From: Syncephalis fuscata
Lineage: Eukaryota; Zoopagomycota; Zoopagomycetes; Zoopagales; Piptocephalidaceae
Reading direction: 5' to 3'
Length of the DNA: 64,000 bases
Assembly (NCBI GenBank): GCA_025786725.1
Contig: JAHLTZ010000022.1
Span: 62,001 to 126,000 of the forward strand
Position 1 is the stretch's first letter, and each line of letters starts with the position of its first letter. Below, one piece after another: positions 17,370 through 63,573 of this stretch. The position numbers and the translations under genes were made by a program. The notes under the pieces are model-generated. The model was not told the origin of the DNA. It saw only the letters and a list, made by a program, of their open reading frames with translations, and did no database searches.

Positions 17370-18320
17370 ATGAAGCTTTCCATTGCCGTCGTTTGCACCA
17401 TTGTCGCTGCGCTTGTGGCCGCTACAGCCATCGTGGATGCTAATCCAGTTCCAGTTTACCACGGTATGTTGCAATAACAATAGATATGCCATAGCATTAT
17501 GCTTACTAACAGCATTTTTAATTAATAATTATAATAGAATGTAAGCTCTATTGTGTATTAACTGACGATGCGCTAATTTTATACCATGCACCGCGTATAC
17601 CAATAACTTAATATTAATAGTATGTAAGTTATATTGTATATTAATTGAGCATTGACTTATTGTATATTATGTATTGTGTGTATCAATAACTTGATATTAA
17701 TAGGTGGTAAGTGATATTGCATATTAACTGGTTATACATTAACTGCTATTTATTGATTGTACTGCTTATTTAATGTTAATAGATCGTAAGTGATATGTAT
17801 ATTAACTGAATATAAATTAACTATACTATTCATTATTTGTATTAATTGTTTAATATTAATAGCACGTAAGTAGTGTTGCATATTAACTGACTACTATTAC
17901 TTATCGTACCAATTGTTTAATATCAATAGGCAGTAAGTTATATTGTGTATTAATTAACTATACATTAACTATACTATTCGTTGATTGTATCAATTGTTTA
18001 ATATTAATAGATCGTAAGTGATATTGTATATTAACTGAATATAAATTAACTATACTATTCATTGATTGTACCAATTGTTTAATATTAATAGCTTGTAAGT
18101 GATGTTGCATATTAATTGACTACTATTTACTGATTGTATCAATTGTTTAATATCAATAGGCAGTAAGTTATATTGTGTATTAATTAACTATACATTAACT
18201 ATACTATTTATTGATTGTATCAATTGTTTACTATTAATAGAACGTAAGCTGTATTGTGTATTGATGGCTTATATATTAATTATATGTCATGTAATATATT
18301 TATTTGTAAATACAGCATAG
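17370..18320 (+). CDS. microexon gene A: secreted small peptide encoded by ten 3-nt exons
   Basis: Exon 1 (17370-17463, 94 nt, phase 1) encodes a signal peptide (MKLSIAVVCTIVAALVAA, then TAIVDA) and the residues NPVPVYH. Ten 3-nt exons follow, each bounded by an acceptor like ATTAATAG and a donor like GTAAGT: aat 17538, tat 17621, gtg 17704, atc 17783, cac 17863, gca 17930, atc 18011, ctt 18092, gca 18160, aac 18241. The last exon starts at 18316 with CA and TAG (18318-18320). Every intron is phase 1, so each codon is split between neighbouring microexons. Joining them gives ELCDPRNPCKP and the stop. The prepropeptide is 42 residues and the mature peptide about 18, with two cysteines (C-x5-C). 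Introns are 64-80 nt. The function is unknown. The open frame, the stop at the same place as in gene B, and variable triplets between conserved splice signals all support the model; there is no transcript evidence here. Confidence 0.82.
17464..18315 (+). repeat. tandem intron array A (unit about 81 nt)
   Basis: There are eleven introns. Nine units repeat at 67-83 nt spacing, with the pattern GTAAGT..TATTGTATATTAACTGA, then ATTGTACCAATTG, then TTTAATATTAATAG. The three bases between AATAG and GTAAGT differ between most units, while the introns remain alike. The shorter 67-68 nt spacings precede the two gca exons at 17930 and 18160, and the units around them look like a recent local duplication. 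Confidence 0.9.
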
Positions 18321-19455
18321 TCGATGGTTTCAAGACATCAGCATTAGTAGTGCAATTGAACCACTATTCCAATACAATTTAGGTATATATTCGGTGAAAA
18401 GCAAGACCATTTGACAACTACGCCGTCCAGTCTATTTATATATCAAGTTTTGGCCAATTCTCCGGTTTATCCAGTCTTTAACCAATGAAATCCTTATTTT
18501 ATCAACGAGCTTGCATCTAGTTGTTTCTATTCAACTGTGCAAGCTTATAGTAATAAACTTATGGTTTCATCTTAACTATATACAATCAAATTGCTATATC
18601 TATAATCACGTTCTATTTACATCCAATAATTGACAACTATTAATCAAATAGTTAAATGAACAAAATGTCTATAATCGTATCGTCTAAGCTAATAGGCATA
18701 GATTGGTATGGACAGTAGCAAAGCTATTATTATCATATAGCCAAATAATAGTATTCTGAAATTAGAATAAAGACGCTTTTCTAATAAAACATGACAACAA
18801 AGCATAGAATATTATTAAACAAAATAAATAAGCAAATCAAATACATAAATAGTGATAGTGAGACTATACTGTATGCAATTGGCCAAGAGTAATGAACGAA
18901 ATAAATCAAAATCTATTAAAAATACAGCTAGCAGTAAACTTTTAAGTTTTGTTAATATAGTTTTTACAATTTACAATATCAATGATATAGATGGGCACAA
19001 GTATCTGTATACATGATAGATATGTACAGTCCAATAATAACGATAAATAAAAATTTAATAGCCAATGACACTCACCACTCAATTTATCTTCAATAACACG
19101 AATATTTAGTTTAAATGTGTGGCTATTATAGCTATTTAATCGCCAAATCACATTAAACAACCAATAGTGTGCTTAATATTGGCAAAAGGTTATTTTTATT
19201 TAGTTAATAAAATATCATAAGATTTAATACAAATCAAGTGGATTAAATGATCCGTCACAGCACCTTTTTAAGCTTCTTTAGCCATGTTCCATGACTTTTT
19301 TAAATTAGAACATTGAAGCAACTACTGCACCATTTAAGAATGAATGTTACAGGTAGATTGTTTTAGTTTATCAATGATAAATACCATGTTGACGGCTTTA
19401 TTTTGCATATTTTCACTCTTTTGATACACCAACCAATTGATTTGAGTTGCTCAGA
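18316..19455 (+). other. last exon and 3' flank of microexon gene A
   Basis: The last exon begins CATAG and is noncoding after the stop. The following 1.1 kb is conserved with the minus strand of 30171-29036, which suggests a long 3' UTR or a shared duplicated block. No other gene was recognised in it. Confidence 0.5.
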
Positions 19456-29035: not shown

Positions 29036-30166
29036 TGAGCAACTCAATTATTGGTTGGTGTATCAAAAGAGTGAAAATATGCAAAATAAAGCCGTCAACA
29101 TGGTATTTATCATTGATAAACTAAAACAATCTACCTGTAACATTCATTCTTAAATGGTGCAGTAGTTGCTTCAATGTTCTAATTTAAAAAAGTCATGGAA
29201 CATGGCTAAAGAAGCTTAAAAAGGTGCTGTGACGGATCATTTAAACCACTTGATTTGTATTAAATCTTATGATATTTTATTAACTAAATAAAAATAACCT
29301 TTTGCCAATATTAAGCACACTATTGGTTGTTTAATGTGATTTGGCGATTAAATAGCTATAATAGCCACACATTTAAACTAAATATTCGTGTTATTGAAGA
29401 TAAACTTGAGTGGTGAGTGTCATTGGCTATTAAATTTTTATTTATCGTTATTATTGGACTGTACATATCTATCATGTATACAGATACTTGTGCCCATCTA
29501 TATCATTGATATTGTAAATTGTAAAAACTATATTAACAAAACTTAAAAGTTTACTGCTAGCTGTATTTTTAATAGATTTTGATTTATTTCGTTCATTACT
29601 CTTGGCCAATTGCATACAGTATAGTCTCACTATCACTATTTATGTATTTGATTTGCTTATTTATTTTGTTTAATAATATTCTATGCTTTGTTGTCATGTT
29701 TTATTAGAAAAGCGTCTTTATTCTAATTTCAGAATACTATTATTTGGCTATATGATAATAATAGCTTTGCTACTGTCCATACCAATCTATGCCTATTAGC
29801 TTAGACGATACGATTATAGACATTTTGTTCATTTAACTATTTGATTAATAGTTGTCAATATTGGATGCAAATAGAACGTGATTATAGATATAGCAATTTG
29901 ATTGTATATAGTTAAGATGAAACCATAAGTTTATTACTATAAGTCTGCACAGTTGAGTAGAGACAACTGATTGCAAGCTTGTTGATAAAATAATGATCCC
30001 ATTGATTAAAGACTGGATAAACCGGAGCATTGGCCAAAACTTGATATATAAATAGACTGGACGGCGTAGTTGTCAAATGGTCTTGCTTTTCACCGAATAT
30101 ATACCTAAATTGTATTGGAATAGTGGTTCAATTGCACTACCAATGCTGATGTCTTGAAACCATCGA

Positions 30167-33100
30167 CTATGCTGTATTTACAAATAAATATATTACATGA
30201 CATATAATTAATATATAAGCCATTAAGGTACAATGCTACTTACAGCCTATTAATAGTAAACAATTGATACAATCAGTAAATAGCATGCAATTAGCACATA
30301 GTCAATTAATATACTATATAACTTACATACGCCTAATTTTGATTTGTTGATGGATACAGTACATAGTATATAATTAGTGCATAGTCAGCTAACATATAAT
30401 ATTACTTACTTTCTATTATATTAAGTTATTGATATACACAACACATGGTATAGAGTTAGTGCATATTCAGTTAATACACAATACAACTTACTGCCTATTA
30501 TATTAAATTATTGATACACACAGTAAATAGCATGTAATTAGTGGGGTAACCAATTAACATATCACAACTTACATTCTATAATTTTTGACGCATACAGTAC
30601 ATAGTATAACATTAGTGTATATCCGATTAATATAAAATGCAACTTACTGCCTATTCATATCAAATAATTAATATTATCATTAAATAGCATGGTTAATGTA
30701 TAACCAGTTAATATATAATATAACTTACCATCTATTAATATTAAAAATTGGTAAATAAGTAAATAGCATGGTTAATGTATAATTAATTAGTACACAATAC
30801 AACTTACATCCTATTAATATTAAATAATCGACGTAATCAGCAAATATTATAGTTAATATATAGTTAATTAATACACAATACTACTTACTGCCTATTGATA
30901 TTAAACAATTAGTACAATCAATAAATAGCGTAATTAATATATATTCAGTTAATATGCAATACTACTTACAAGCTATTAATATTAAACAATTGGTACAATC
31001 AATAAATAGTATAGTTAATGTATAGTTAACTAATACACAATAGCACTTACTGCCTATTAATAGCAAACAATTGGCACAATCAGTAAATATCATGTGATTA
31101 GTGTATAGTTAATTAATATATAATGCCACTTACTCCCTATTATATTAAGTTGTTGGCGCATATAATACATCGTACACAATTGGTAAATAGTCCATTAATA
31201 TATAACACAACTTAGACAGAGAAGTGGTAAGACAGAGTTGCAGTGGACACGCGCACATGTAGGTACAAGAGGGAACGAGCTGGCGGACAAGGAAGCGAAA
31301 AAGGCGGCAGCTACTACAATAATAGCAGTACCAAGATGGACGCTGAACACGTCACCAGCTCCAGTACATCAGCACAACATGCTCATGTCAAAATTAAACA
31401 CACTACTGGAGCCACGTAGTGCAGTTAAACGACAAAGTAAGGTAAGGCAAGAAAGAGCATTAAAAGAACTAATAGGAAGACAACACCCGGAGTTAGCACA
31501 AACACTACTTACCAGTACAAAAGTGGAGCTAACTATAAGAGAGGGGGTGAGACCGGAAAAAGACACGAGTAAGGAAGAGTATCAAATAGAGATGAAAGAA
31601 GAGAGTTTGCGCTAAAAATGGCAGCCGGTATACTGCCAACTCTAGAAAGGCAAAATAAGTGGTGTAAGGAGAGGTATAGAACTAATATGTGCTGCAGATG
31701 TAGTAGTGGAGAAGTAGAGACGTGGCGACATATAGTGAAGTGTGAAGGAAACGGACTAGATAGGGAAAAAGAAGCAAGAGATAAAATTAAAGACATGACA
31801 AGAAGAAAGGTGGAGTGGATAAATGAAAGAAGATCGAGAAAAGACCCGCCAATGAGACTGTTAAATGTGGGGGAGGTGGCTGAATCTATTGTCCCAGATC
31901 AGCCAATCAGCAACACCGGATTTCTATTAGGATTGGTGAGCCCACAAACACTATACAGTATGAAAAGAGAGGGGGTACGCGAAGAAGAAAGAAGAGAACT
32001 AATAAAAACAGCAACAAAGACGGCATTGGACTTTGTATGGAAAAAGATATGGAAGACAAGATGCAAGCAAGTGGACGAAGCAATAGGAAGATGGAAAACA
32101 GTACGTACCGACACACAAATAGCAGGTCAACCAGAACCACAAGAAGGTCCGGCAACAAACGCCGAAGGCCAGAGAGGCCTGAGGCAAATTTATACCTGGG
32201 ACCACATCAATAAAATGGCGTTCGACGTCGAACGCCACCTAAAGATGGTGGCCCCCGCGTGGAGTCTATAGGACCCGGCTCTATGCAAAAACGTGGCGGT
32301 CCACTCGGTATCAACAATGCTACATTGTTTAATATTTTAAAAGCTTTATTATAATTAACGCGATAACAGCATGACACTGAGAAGCAGCACAAATTCTTTA
32401 ATTATGCGCAGCGGGGGCCCACAAGCTCTTCAAAATAAAAATAAATAATATATAACACAACTTACAAACTATTAATATTAAATAATTAATATTATCATTA
32501 AATAGCATAGTTAATGTATAGTCGGTTAATATACAATATCGCTTACTGCCTATTAATATTAAATGAGCAATGTCATCAATAAATAGTATGATTAATGTAT
32601 AATCAGTTAATATACAATACCACTTACTCGCTATTAGTATTAAGTGATTGGCGCAATTAGTAAATAACAGTTAATATATAGGCAGTTAATATACAATACA
32701 ACTTACGATCTATTAATATCAAATAATTGGTACAATCAGTAAATAGCATAGTTAATATATAGGCAGTTAATATACAATACCACTTACCCTCTATTAATAT
32801 TAAATAATTGGCACAATCAGTAAATAGCAGTTAATGTATAGTTAATTAATCTACAATACCACTTACTCGCTATTAATATTAAACAATTAATACCGTCAGT
32901 AAATAACATTATTAACATATAGTCAGTTAATATACAATATTACTTACAAGCTTTTAATATTAAACAATTGGTACAATCAATAAATAGTATAGTTAATGTA
33001 TAGTTAACTAATACACAATATCACTTACCCTCTATTAATATTAAATAATTGGTGCAATCAGTAAATAGTATAGTTAATATATAGTCAGTTAATATACGAT

Positions 33101-34100
33101 ACAACTTACGACCTATTAATATTAATCATCAGTACAATGAGTAAATAGCATAGTTAATATATATTCAGTTAATATGCAATACTACTTACAAGCTATTAAT
33201 ATTAAACAATTGGTACAGTTAGTAAATAGCACGTGATTAGTGAGTAATCAGTTAGTATACAATACTACTTACGTCCTATCAATATTAAATAATTGGCACA
33301 ATCAGTAAATATTATAGTTAATACATAGTTAATTAATATACAGTGTTACTTGCCCACTATTCCATCAAGTTATTGATACACATGGTGCATGACACACAAT
33401 TAATTTATAAGTCAGTTGATATATAATGCTACTTACTGCCTATTAATATCAAGTTATTGATACACACAATACATAATATACAATAAGTCATGCTCAATTA
33501 ATATACAATATAAATTACATGCTATTAATATTAAGTTATTGGTATACGCGGTGCATGGTATAAAATTAGTTTATATTTAATTAATATGAAGTGCTACTTA
33601 CCAACTATTCCATCAAGTTATTAATACACATAATACGTGGTATAATTAATGTATAATCTATTAGTATACAATACCACTTACAGCCTATTAATATTAAGTC
33701 ATTAATGCACATGATGCATAGCATGTGATTAGTGAGTAATCAATTGATATACAATATAACTTACATTTTTCTAATATTAAGTTGTTAATAGATACAGTAC
33801 ATAACACATAGTTAATGCATGTTCTGTTGACATGTAATGCAACCTACCATCTATTAATAGTTATTTTTTGATGCACGCAATGCATAGTATATAATTAGTG
33901 AGCAATTAGTTAACATACAATATAACTTACGATCTATTATAATTATTAGTTAGAAATGCTGTTAATAAACAAATGCTGTTATATTTATTATTATTGTAAC
34001 ATACCAACACGACGAACTAAGGCTGGTTTAGCATCCACCATGGTTGTAACGGCCACAAGCGCAACGACAATGGTGCAAACGACGGCAATGGAAACTTCAT
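30167..34100 (-). CDS. microexon gene B: secreted cysteine-rich peptide encoded by 31 exons of 3 or 6 nt
   Basis: Exon 1 is 34005-34100. It matches the signal exon of gene A but lacks one base near 34094 (AAGTTTCC against AAGCTTTCC), which throws it out of frame; this may be an assembly error or a true defect. Then come 31 microexons, given by lower coordinate: 33931, 33848, 33765 (6 nt), 33682, 33602, 33519, 33437, 33354, 33273, 33190, 33110, 33029, 32948, 32867, 32788, 32707, 32628, 32547, 32466, 31134, 31051, 30970, 30889, 30808, 30729, 30648, 30573, 30492, 30410, 30327 (6 nt) and 30244. The last exon starts at 30171 with CA and TAG. Read in phase 1, the array gives 34 codons without a stop, and the TAG is the same one used in gene A. 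The segment has six cysteines, C-x2-C-x3-C-x11-C-x4-C-x3-C, as in small disulfide-rich secreted peptides. The function is unknown. Confidence 0.8.
31196..31214. repeat. left target-site duplication of the LINE insertion
   Basis: The 19-nt string TAATATATAACACAACTTA is repeated exactly at 32446-32464, on the other side of the insertion. It ends within the conserved donor sequence of a microexon unit. Confidence 0.9.
31238..32271 (+). pseudogene. LINE ORF2 C-terminal fragment (RNase H plus C-terminal region)
   Basis: The first frame has QWTRAHVGTRGNELADKEAK, the His and Asp region typical of the RNase H domain in I/Tad-type LINEs. After a frame break near 31600-31618 a second frame continues with AAGILPTLERQNKWC, CCRCSSGEVETWRHIVKC (a Cys/His cluster common after RNase H in these elements) and ends at 32271. 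Reverse transcriptase and endonuclease are missing, so the fragment cannot move by itself. Confidence 0.8.
32217..32236. repeat. perfect 20-nt palindrome in the LINE 3' region
   Basis: GGCGTTCGACGTCGAACGCC is its own reverse complement. It overlaps the end of the LINE ORF, and its RNA could form a hairpin. Confidence 0.85.
32446..32464. repeat. right target-site duplication of the LINE insertion
   Basis: This is identical to 31196-31214. Together with base 32465 it supplies the donor for the exon at 32466-32468. Confidence 0.9.
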
Positions 34101-35932: not shown

Positions 35933-36870
35933 ATGAAGCTCCACGATAGTTTTAAGCTAAACACTGGGCATACCATCCCTGCCGTTGGACTGGGCACTTG
36001 GCAAGCGGAACCGGGATTGGTAGAAGCAGCCGTAGCGCACGCCATTCAAATTGGCTATCGTCATATAGACTGTGCAGCAATCTACGGACAAGAGCAAGAA
36101 GTTGGCAAAGGAATAAAAAAAGGCGGTGTGCCACGAGAACAGTTGTTTATTACTTCAAAGTTGTGGAATACACGACATGATCCAAAAGATGTTGCAGGCG
36201 CGTTTGAAAAGACGCTAAAAGATCTTGACCTAGACTATCTTGACCTCTACCTTATGCATACGCCGGTAGCCTTTAAATCCCATCTCAACGTGGCATTCGA
36301 AAATGTTACCATGGACATGGTTGACAATATCGATTTCTGTGATACTTGGAAAGCTATGGGAGTAGGTACTTTTTAATAGCTATTATACAAATATTTATAT
36401 TTATTTACTAGGAACTACTGGCTACTGGAAAAGTTCGATCAATTGGTGTATCCAATTTTAACATCACCAATATGGAGCGACTTCTTTCCAATACAAAAAA
36501 CGTTCCTGCTGTCAATCAAATAGAGCTGCATCCGTATCTACCGCAAGACGAGTTGGTTAAATTTTGTCAAAGCAAAAATATCCATGTTACTGCGTACAGT
36601 CCACTTGGGTCTGCAGGTGCACCACTACAGTCCGAGCCGATCATTAACGAAGTAGCCAAAAAGCATCAATGTACCCCAGCCCAAGTGCTTATCAACTGGG
36701 CAGTGGCACGCAATACGTCAGTCATCCCGAAATCCGTTGACTCGGCTCGCATCGAATCAAACTTTGCTGAAAACCCGTTGAATCAAAATGATATCGACAA
36801 AATAGCGCAAATTACAAAGCGTGAACGCTACTGCAAATTCTTACCTTGGGGAAAGACCATTTTCGACTAG
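35933..36870 (+). CDS. aldo-keto reductase
   Basis: This is an NAD(P)H-dependent reductase of the AKR superfamily, acting on aldehydes or sugars in the cytosol. It has two exons, 35933-36361 and 36412-36870. The (beta/alpha)8 signature elements are all present: [16 protein letters not shown] near the start, [14 protein letters not shown] (catalytic Asp and Tyr), [13 protein letters not shown] (Lys), DLYLMHTPV (His), [28 protein letters not shown] and [15 protein letters not shown] (cofactor binding). The length of about 295 residues is normal. The ATG at 35933 precedes [10 protein letters not shown], which fits the family N-terminus. It starts about 340 bp outside arm B of the inverted duplication and is otherwise an ordinary housekeeping gene. 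The substrate is not predictable. Confidence 0.93.
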
Positions 36871-62827: not shown

Positions 62828-62920
62828 ATGCTTTCTGTTTTCTGTGCATTATCTCGGTTTAATGTTGCTACTGTTTTGGCCGCATTAGCAACAGCCAACT
62901 TCTTGATAAATGCAGCCTAG
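62828..62920 (+). CDS. signal-peptide-like short frame
   Basis: ATG 62828 to TAG 62918-62920 encodes 30 residues (MLSVFCALSRFNVATVLAA, then LATANFLINAA), shaped like a complete signal peptide. The two inverted-repeat arms keep the same frame without the ATG. It may be a relic first exon of a small secreted peptide gene, or chance. Confidence 0.3.
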   Translation: MLSVFCALSRFNVATVLAALATANFLINAA

Positions 62921-63573
62921 CTTAGCATAGTTATAATGATAGCAAATCATTAAACCAGTAAGCCTTTAAACTGCCAACTATTTTTCCATTGGTTTCTGCT
63001 TTGGCTTGTTTTCTATATTCTATCTTGCTTAACTTGTCAGAATTGGTTTCAGAAATGTAAACAGCGCTTAGGCCTTAGATGATTATCGGCTGATGTACAA
63101 TCCACAGCCACTATGCACTTGAAATTGCTGATATTTGGCTAGAGTTTTCTGTTGTATCTATTTTAGTGTCTTCATATTGTATTGCGCGTAATTTATCCGA
63201 TGCAATCTAGTTTACAGCTGAAGATTGATGACGAAAATGACATGTTGGAATGTTCCATTGCTCAAAATGTTGTGATACATTATGCTACAAACAGTACTTA
63301 TTGTATAGTCGATTTCAGGTGATTTGGATTAGCCGCCATTTGAATGATGGTAGTTGCACAACATGTAGCATCATATGTCTGAATGTGATGTATTTGTGAA
63401 TTCAAAGCAATTACTACCCCATAGCAATAGGCATAGTGTCGAATGAAATGCATACATGTACCAATCAATACACTTTATAATTTAAAGAATTATAAGTGGC
63501 TTATGTATGGCAGTAAAAACCTGTATAAAATACCATTTTGATACAATAAACTTGTTTTTTGCGTCAATATTGT

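Follow-up and report, generated by a model that had tools for sequence, protein, structure and literature searches.

Can a peptide be encoded by a gene in which almost every codon forms an exon of its own? This question is raised by a 64,000-nucleotide stretch of DNA (the window, G000:C135:62001-126000) from the zoopagalean fungus Syncephalis fuscata, whose genome is assembled into 28.95 Mb in 299 contigs. On the minus strand of the window, at 34100-30167, lies gene B, whose leader exon and last exon enclose a long series of microexons of 3 or 6 nt, called here array B; gene A, on the plus strand, carries a shorter array. We propose, with a probability of about 0.86, that array B is the mature-peptide region of a large, hypervariable family of secreted peptides spliced from single-codon exons, a reading drawn from genomic sequence. 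One part of it, the encoding of peptide by splicing of single-codon exons, is highly probable in our judgement, and action of the peptides on host fungi is a fairly likely extension.

Gene models were built from splice signals and spacing only, with the reading frame ignored (frame-blind models) and with exon lengths other than 3 and 6 nt penalised. A first, stricter model overlooked acceptor variants and exons of 6 nt, and this looser one took its place. Array B, for which the original prediction had proposed thirty-one exons of 3 or 6 nt, was recovered at the same place with 31 microexons (29 of 3 nt and two of 6 nt); 28 of its sites match a strict motif, the tandem period is about 81 bp, and one GC donor is present at 33353. 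Together with one base from the end of exon 1 and two from the start of the last exon, the 99 microexon bases indeed give 34 stop-free codons. Joined in phase 1, they read DHEKCFACMGPCQASKDPSIWSTCRYGKCKSVCS, followed by TAG, and the six cysteines (Cys) have the spacing foreseen, C-x2-C-x3-C-x11-C-x4-C-x3-C (2-3-11-4-3). The further claim, that such a framework would not be expected by chance, holds across the family in shuffles of 19 arrays and is less secure for array B taken alone: when its own triplets were shuffled 100,000 times, 0.7% of the results had no stop and six or more Cys, a fraction that is not negligible. The odds in array B itself are thus modest, and it is the statistics of the 19 arrays that make the case overwhelming.

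The family was collected by means of the 31-residue leader of gene A, a leader matched at no fewer than 150 places in the genome (285 candidates, of which 150 were scored; near-identical contigs included). Thirty-five leader matches were looked up and downstream sequence was read for 33 of them, four more being read in part; 25 of the 33 continue into an array and eight into a single open mature part. All comparisons are between paralogues of this one genome, not between strains. For the coding test, 19 arrays were retained out of 25, five near-copies and one array with a 2-nt exon having been dropped, and the order of triplets was permuted within arrays 10,000 times as a control. In phase 1 the joined arrays contain one stop in 568 codons, against 33.9 after shuffling (standard deviation (SD) 4.2, minimum 18), and 97 Cys, against 44.9 (SD 4.8, maximum 64). 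Adjacent triplets, about 78 nt apart, are thus matched to each other in phase 1 and not in phase 2 (61 stops, 51.6 shuffled) or phase 0 (4 stops, 4.0 shuffled; one Cys). The sole phase-1 stop, in C165:5442, follows DPCDPFHPCTS and may be the true end of that gene. Six Cys are present in 12 of the 19 arrays, and 8 of these 12 fit the spacing 2-3-(9-14)-(3-5)-(3-4).

The arrays could alternatively be an untranslated satellite-like tandem repeat with chance splice-like motifs. The periodicity of about 81 bp agrees with this, as do the many AT-rich copies, some of them in damaged genes. Matching of triplets in coding phase across some 78 nt contradicts it, however, and a satellite would hardly be expected to keep a constant 3-nt gap with variable letters or to have a peptide framework in common with intronless paralogues (described below). 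We find this alternative scarcely credible, and both the satellite-only and the neutral-drift readings are rejected by the phase-1 statistics: the frequent stops that the original prediction had named as the mark of neutral drift are absent from the joined frame. Another alternative is suggested by recursive splice sites, in which acceptor and donor stand side by side. The AG-NNN-GT sites, where the two signals adjoin in a similar manner, might be ratchet points within one long intron, leaving a messenger RNA (mRNA) with few or no triplets, and it is plausible that exons so short are spliced step by step. Discarded triplets, though, give no reason for the avoidance of stops or for kept Cys codons, and this reading is very improbable; stepwise splicing that retains the triplets is compatible with a peptide encoded by single-codon exons.

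As the gene model favours lengths of 3 and 6 nt, the claim about exon length is based instead on motif counts and a weight-matrix scan. The pattern TTAATAG-NNN-GTAAGT occurs genome-wide at 1,992 sites and the reversed pattern at one; signals 1-2 nt apart are found at 16 sites against 16 in the control, and signals 4-30 nt apart at 165 against 85. In the scan (exons of 1-30 nt, 311 kb) 803 of 814 candidates were exactly 3 nt long, the others being five of 2 nt, four of 6 nt, one of 1 nt and one of 16 nt, and a base-shuffled control, run on one strand, gave a single candidate. The scan uses a TTAATAG-type acceptor and under-detects 6-nt exons; these follow another acceptor (ATATTAG or ATTAG) and are missed by TTAATAG patterns for that reason. 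The 25 modelled arrays (24 and gene B) comprise 662 exons of 3 nt, 33 of 6 nt and three of other length, so that 695 of 698 internal exons measure 3 or 6 nt under a model favouring these lengths; the strict motif detects 329 of the 698. By extrapolation, about 4,200 microexons would be present in about 150 arrays.

In each of the 24 modelled arrays other than the frameshifted gene B, exon 1 (94 or 97 nt) closes on the first base of a codon, and internal exons keep this phase, starting at codon position 2. The introns are mostly 78 and 80 nt long and all related, being about 72% alike irrespective of position and 72-82% alike at the same position. In 546 units chosen by strict criteria, intron positions at most about 14 nt from the triplet are mostly occupied by one base at 75-97%, counting only positions left free by the search pattern, and the triplets comprise 58 different words. 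The 6-nt exons recur at matching places, often as the third microexon and again near the 3' end (33770-33765 and 30332-30327 in array B); the arrays therefore appear to follow a common, old plan and do not look like random expansions.

Eight loci, coding for seven distinct proteins, present leader, mature part and 3' end without any introns. All seven proteins have six Cys, spaced 2-3-11-5-3 in three of them and 2-3-13-3-3, 2-3-17-5-3, 2-3-9-3-5 and 2-4-8-3-5 in the remaining ones. Their genes are homologous to gene A up to a point 7-16 nt short of the exon 1 end; homology sets in again at most 10 nt from where the last exon begins in six of the seven, and 90 nt later in C157. The intronless sequence crosses the predicted outer splice junctions of the arrays, for example at TGCG/CATAATCGATG (slash, junction); at the 3' junction the array gene C190, once joined, reads TGCG/CATAATCGATGG and the intronless C236 reads TGCGCATAATCGATGA. 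The 3' region following the TAG of gene B is likewise common to gene A and the intronless paralogues. A six-Cys peptide with the same framework, leader and 3' end is thus encoded by plain genes, in line with the selection on the spliced product that the original prediction had suspected.

Array and intronless genes share 0.5-1.6 kb of upstream homology in the four cases tested (1.6-1.8 kb compared). The intronless paralogues are therefore not simple retrocopies, and plain retroposition as their sole origin is ruled out. The origin that we prefer is loss of all introns by recombination with complementary DNA (cDNA). The opposite order, in which intronless genes are ancestral and arrays are copies invaded at nearly every codon by an introner-like element, is consistent with the common leader, upstream region and 3' end, with the relatedness of all array introns, and with an intronless form that is no plain retrocopy. 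It would, however, require about 30 insertions one codon apart and always in the same phase, whereas a single cDNA-mediated loss yields the intronless form in one step, and arrays under coding selection are not mere debris. We consider it unlikely.

If the spliced peptide is selected, Cys codons should be kept while other triplets vary, the test that the original prediction had named. Rates were taken from collinear units, because pooling by intron similarity mixes non-orthologous units, and the 45 pairs of lowest divergence were listed. Between C135:126652 and C293:5180 the introns differ at 119 of 1,362 core bases and the non-Cys triplets at 23 of 55 bases (p=2e-10). The corresponding values are 46/1,039 and 7/45 for C164 and C267, 59/1,038 and 14/45 for C164 and C35, and 157/1,498 and 31/69 for C246 and C267; in these four pairs triplets diverge about 3.5-5.5 times as much as introns. 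Each of the 40 listed pairs whose introns differ by 4% or more shows an excess in triplets (intron divergence is 4-12% in the related pairs detailed). Where either gene has a Cys codon, the two genes agree in 25 of 31 cases, and at other codons in 37 of 155, in 11 chosen, non-independent pairs; labelling a base as Cys only if both genes have Cys would have made the count circular, and that labelling was dropped. Whole-gene alignments agree in direction with the collinear rates, C135:126652 and C293:5180 differing by 16 nonsynonymous and one synonymous codon changes. Cys codons are thus retained, other triplets change faster than the introns, and the named test is borne out on paralogues of one genome.

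Several points weigh on the other side. In the five closest pairs the triplets show no significant excess (0/60, 1/60, 0/25, 0/72 and 6/86), and C164, C267, C35 and C246, four of the genes in which the excess is clearest, belong to one subfamily, so that pairs among them are not independent. The triplet excess by itself fits raised local mutation as well as selection and does not separate the two; it is the stop and Cys statistics that favour selection. Seven of the 19 arrays have only 2-5 Cys, partly where the available sequence ends. Some copies are damaged: C2:601085 lacks the donor of exon 1, C1:475325 models badly, the L059 array has a changed start codon, and gene B itself has to be counted among them. 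Relative to intact paralogues, its exon 1 lacks one base close to the ATG, a point absent from the original prediction, and owing to this missing base the ATG frame stops inside exon 1. In the gene as assembled the signal peptide is not joined to a start codon. Gene B has probably become a pseudogene of the family not long ago; its array frame is still open, so that the loss would be recent, unless it is an error of assembly. A family-alignment search of 5.8 billion proteins (153 candidates) returned eight proteins, all from S. fuscata and one of them an intronless member, and none of these eight annotated proteins equals an array-spliced product. Finally, some 30 consecutive 3-nt exons would be mechanically demanding to splice, and the case for a role on host fungi consists of predicted secretion, variability and lifestyle only.

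We envisage the following course of expression. Exon 1 would provide a signal peptide and a short propeptide, usually ending in dibasic RR; the leader is conserved in the family alignment, LVRR ends 30 of 33 exon-1 copies, and the hydrophobic leader and LVRR together suggest, on sequence grounds, secretion and processing. Splicing would remove about 10-40 very similar introns (mostly 78-80 nt) and join the one- and two-codon exons at codon position 2, so that the mRNA would contain all triplets, and the last exon would supply the stop. The product, probably secreted and cleaved at RR, would be a short peptide, mostly with six Cys. In such a gene the introns and splice signals would be the conserved part and the triplets other than Cys codons the variable part. 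Cys would hold a small fold, and loops would diversify by base change and probably also by gain and loss of whole 81-bp intron-plus-codon units, by which the frame cannot break. There is perhaps an even chance that this organisation works as a diversity generator, in which single residues are gained, lost, swapped or skipped in frame through recombination or alternative splicing between near-identical introns.

The likeliest site of action of the peptides is outside the fungus, where they would affect its host fungi as effectors or toxins. Variable Cys-rich secreted peptides are also known in mating, self-recognition and defence, and the same architecture could serve the fungus itself, providing mating or self-recognition signals or antimicrobial defence. 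A sister gene, L056, which has the same leader and a Cys-free peptide with several dibasic sites, would suit such a role. We think this possible though doubtful: Piptocephalis and Syncephalis, the latter including the zoopagalean S. fuscata, are called mycoparasitic in a review (PMC10386755), and an arms race would go well with a family that numbers 150 or more copies, many of which have diversified.

Conotoxin- and defensin-like families combine a conserved leader, kept Cys, variable loops and a processing site with ordinary exons; the arrays resemble them in conserved leader, variable mature part and kept Cys and differ in having one codon per exon. No microexon gene known to us contains one-codon exons in long series. 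Introners occur across many genes. Fungal introner-like elements are described as many near-identical introns in one genome (PMC4457414); array introns are similarly numerous and near-identical, but were seen here in tandem within one family, the genes surveyed being those of this family. Nearest in kind are two animal families of secreted or effector-like products with many small in-frame exons. The micro-exon genes (MEGs) of schistosomes assemble secreted parasite products out of numerous short exons, whose lengths are mostly divisible by three, and are hard to annotate automatically; exons measure 6-81 bp (3-81 in the abstract), mostly 15 bp, and introns 0.1-5 kb (PMC10526429). In the arrays, too, the coding region consists mostly of short exons with lengths divisible by three; unlike in MEGs, internal exons are nearly all single codons, introns are near-repeats of about 78 nt, and the kingdom is a different one. 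No sequence relation to MEGs was seen in a database search of limited reach for short peptides, made without direct comparison. The bicycle genes of aphids form a large, fast-evolving family of putative effectors with about 17 exons on average, many of them small and internal, the internal ones almost all starting at codon position 2 (PMC9168663). Array exons share this phase; the small exons of bicycle genes are not described as single codons in the accessible part of that report, and the lineage is unrelated.

If RNA confirms the models, up to 39 exons of one or two codons would follow one another without a break (as modelled), more than in any microexon gene known to us, and would offer a natural test of the spliceosome on exons too short to be recognised alone. 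The genes would be inside-out, with conserved introns and hypervariable exons, their intron-exon structure may serve evolvability, and they would represent a large set of effector candidates overlooked by gene prediction. Intronless siblings make array and plain gene comparable within one genome. No match was found among other Syncephalis and Thamnocephalis proteins in the database searched (a search limited by its reliance on shared short words), for the gene A product in a peptide search, among PDB sequences with the intronless family profile, or above the Pfam cut-off for seven family proteins, and a literature search found no report of this peptide family. The predicted fold of one intronless member is all helical, with low confidence (predicted local distance difference test, pLDDT, 62.7; predicted template modelling score, pTM, 0.31).

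Coordinates of the features in the window are given in Table 1.

Table 1. Features of the window; both arrays are from the frame-blind model.
Feature	Position	Strand	Remarks
Gene B, exon 1	34005..34100	-	Putative signal-peptide leader, 96 nt; donor GTATGT
Array B	30244..33933	-	31 microexons
Array B, exons 1-8	ATC 33933-33931, ATG 33850-33848, AAAAAT 33770-33765, GCT 33684-33682, TTG 33604-33602, CAT 33521-33519, GCA 33439-33437, TGG 33356-33354	-	
Array B, exons 9-16	GAC 33275-33273, CTT 33192-33190, GTC 33112-33110, AGG 33031-33029, CTT 32950-32948, CGA 32869-32867, AGG 32790-32788, ATC 32709-32707	-	
Array B, exons 17-24	CGA 32630-32628, GCA 32549-32547, TTT 32468-32466, GGA 31136-31134, GCA 31053-31051, CTT 30972-30970, GCA 30891-30889, GAT 30810-30808	-	
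Array B, exons 25-31	ATG 30731-30729, GCA 30650-30648, AAT 30575-30573, GCA 30494-30492, AAA 30412-30410, GCGTAT 30332-30327, GCT 30246-30244	-	
Gene B, last exon start	30167..30171	-	CA + TAG stop; TAG at 30169-30167
Retroelement-like insertion in array B intron	31215..32445	+	Bounds approximate; A-rich 3' end
Gene A, exon 1	17370..17463	+	MKLSIAVVCTIVAALVAATAIVDANPVPVYH + first base of next codon (phase 1)
Array A	17538..18243	+	Ten 3-nt exons
Array A, exon starts	AAT 17538, TAT 17621, GTG 17704, ATC 17783, CAC 17863, GCA 17930, ATC 18011, CTT 18092, GCA 18160, AAC 18241	+	
Gene A, last exon start	18316..18320	+	CA TAG
Stretch homologous to upstream regions of genes A and B	62835..63428	+	Ahead of third array gene

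The joined peptide of array A is ELCDPRNPCKP, followed by a stop. Gene A falls into a short subfamily with two Cys only and 10-13 microexons, together with C165:5442 and C230:154955 (peptides such as DPCDPFHPCTS and ELCDPRNPCKP). Genes A and B have 3' regions that are inverted copies of each other, with arms at 18201-19437 and 29050-30286 that are 94-100% alike in three blocks. Two blocks (457 and 355 nt) are 100% alike, and the upstream arms 84-97%. The identity of the 3' regions suggests recent duplication or gene conversion. The exon 1 of a third array gene (G000:C135:126652) lies just beyond the window.

The leader is found on very different mature parts (L056, L057; P0126, P0127), among them a Cys-free peptide with multiple dibasic sites and a Cys-free protein of 111 residues. 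The four leaders read in part comprise two arrays, one Cys-free intronless peptide and one leader that has a normal donor and no microexon in the 1 kb read; as they differ downstream, the same leader serves several mature parts. Judging from mature parts so unlike, it appears as if the leader were a shuffled secretion exon.

The array B intron 32465-31137 contains the retroelement-like insertion, which is flanked by the repeat TAATATATAACACAACTTA, likely a target-site duplication. A Pfam scan of its 232-residue open reading frame gave nothing above cut-off, an RNase H-like stretch being a reading by eye only. Intron insertions are present in at least eight of the 25 modelled arrays (besides B in C164, C135:126652, C168, C35, C46, C165 and C1:475325), each of 0.4 kb except for the 1.2 kb in array B, with similar ends, antisense to the gene and at nearly the same place, about 16-20 nt after the donor; retroelements seem to favour array introns. 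A tRNA-like head of the short insertions, suspected by eye, was dropped when Rfam found nothing in L029. An aldo-keto reductase gene at 35934-36870, whose product is 100% identical over 295 residues to an S. fuscata protein, adjoins array B.

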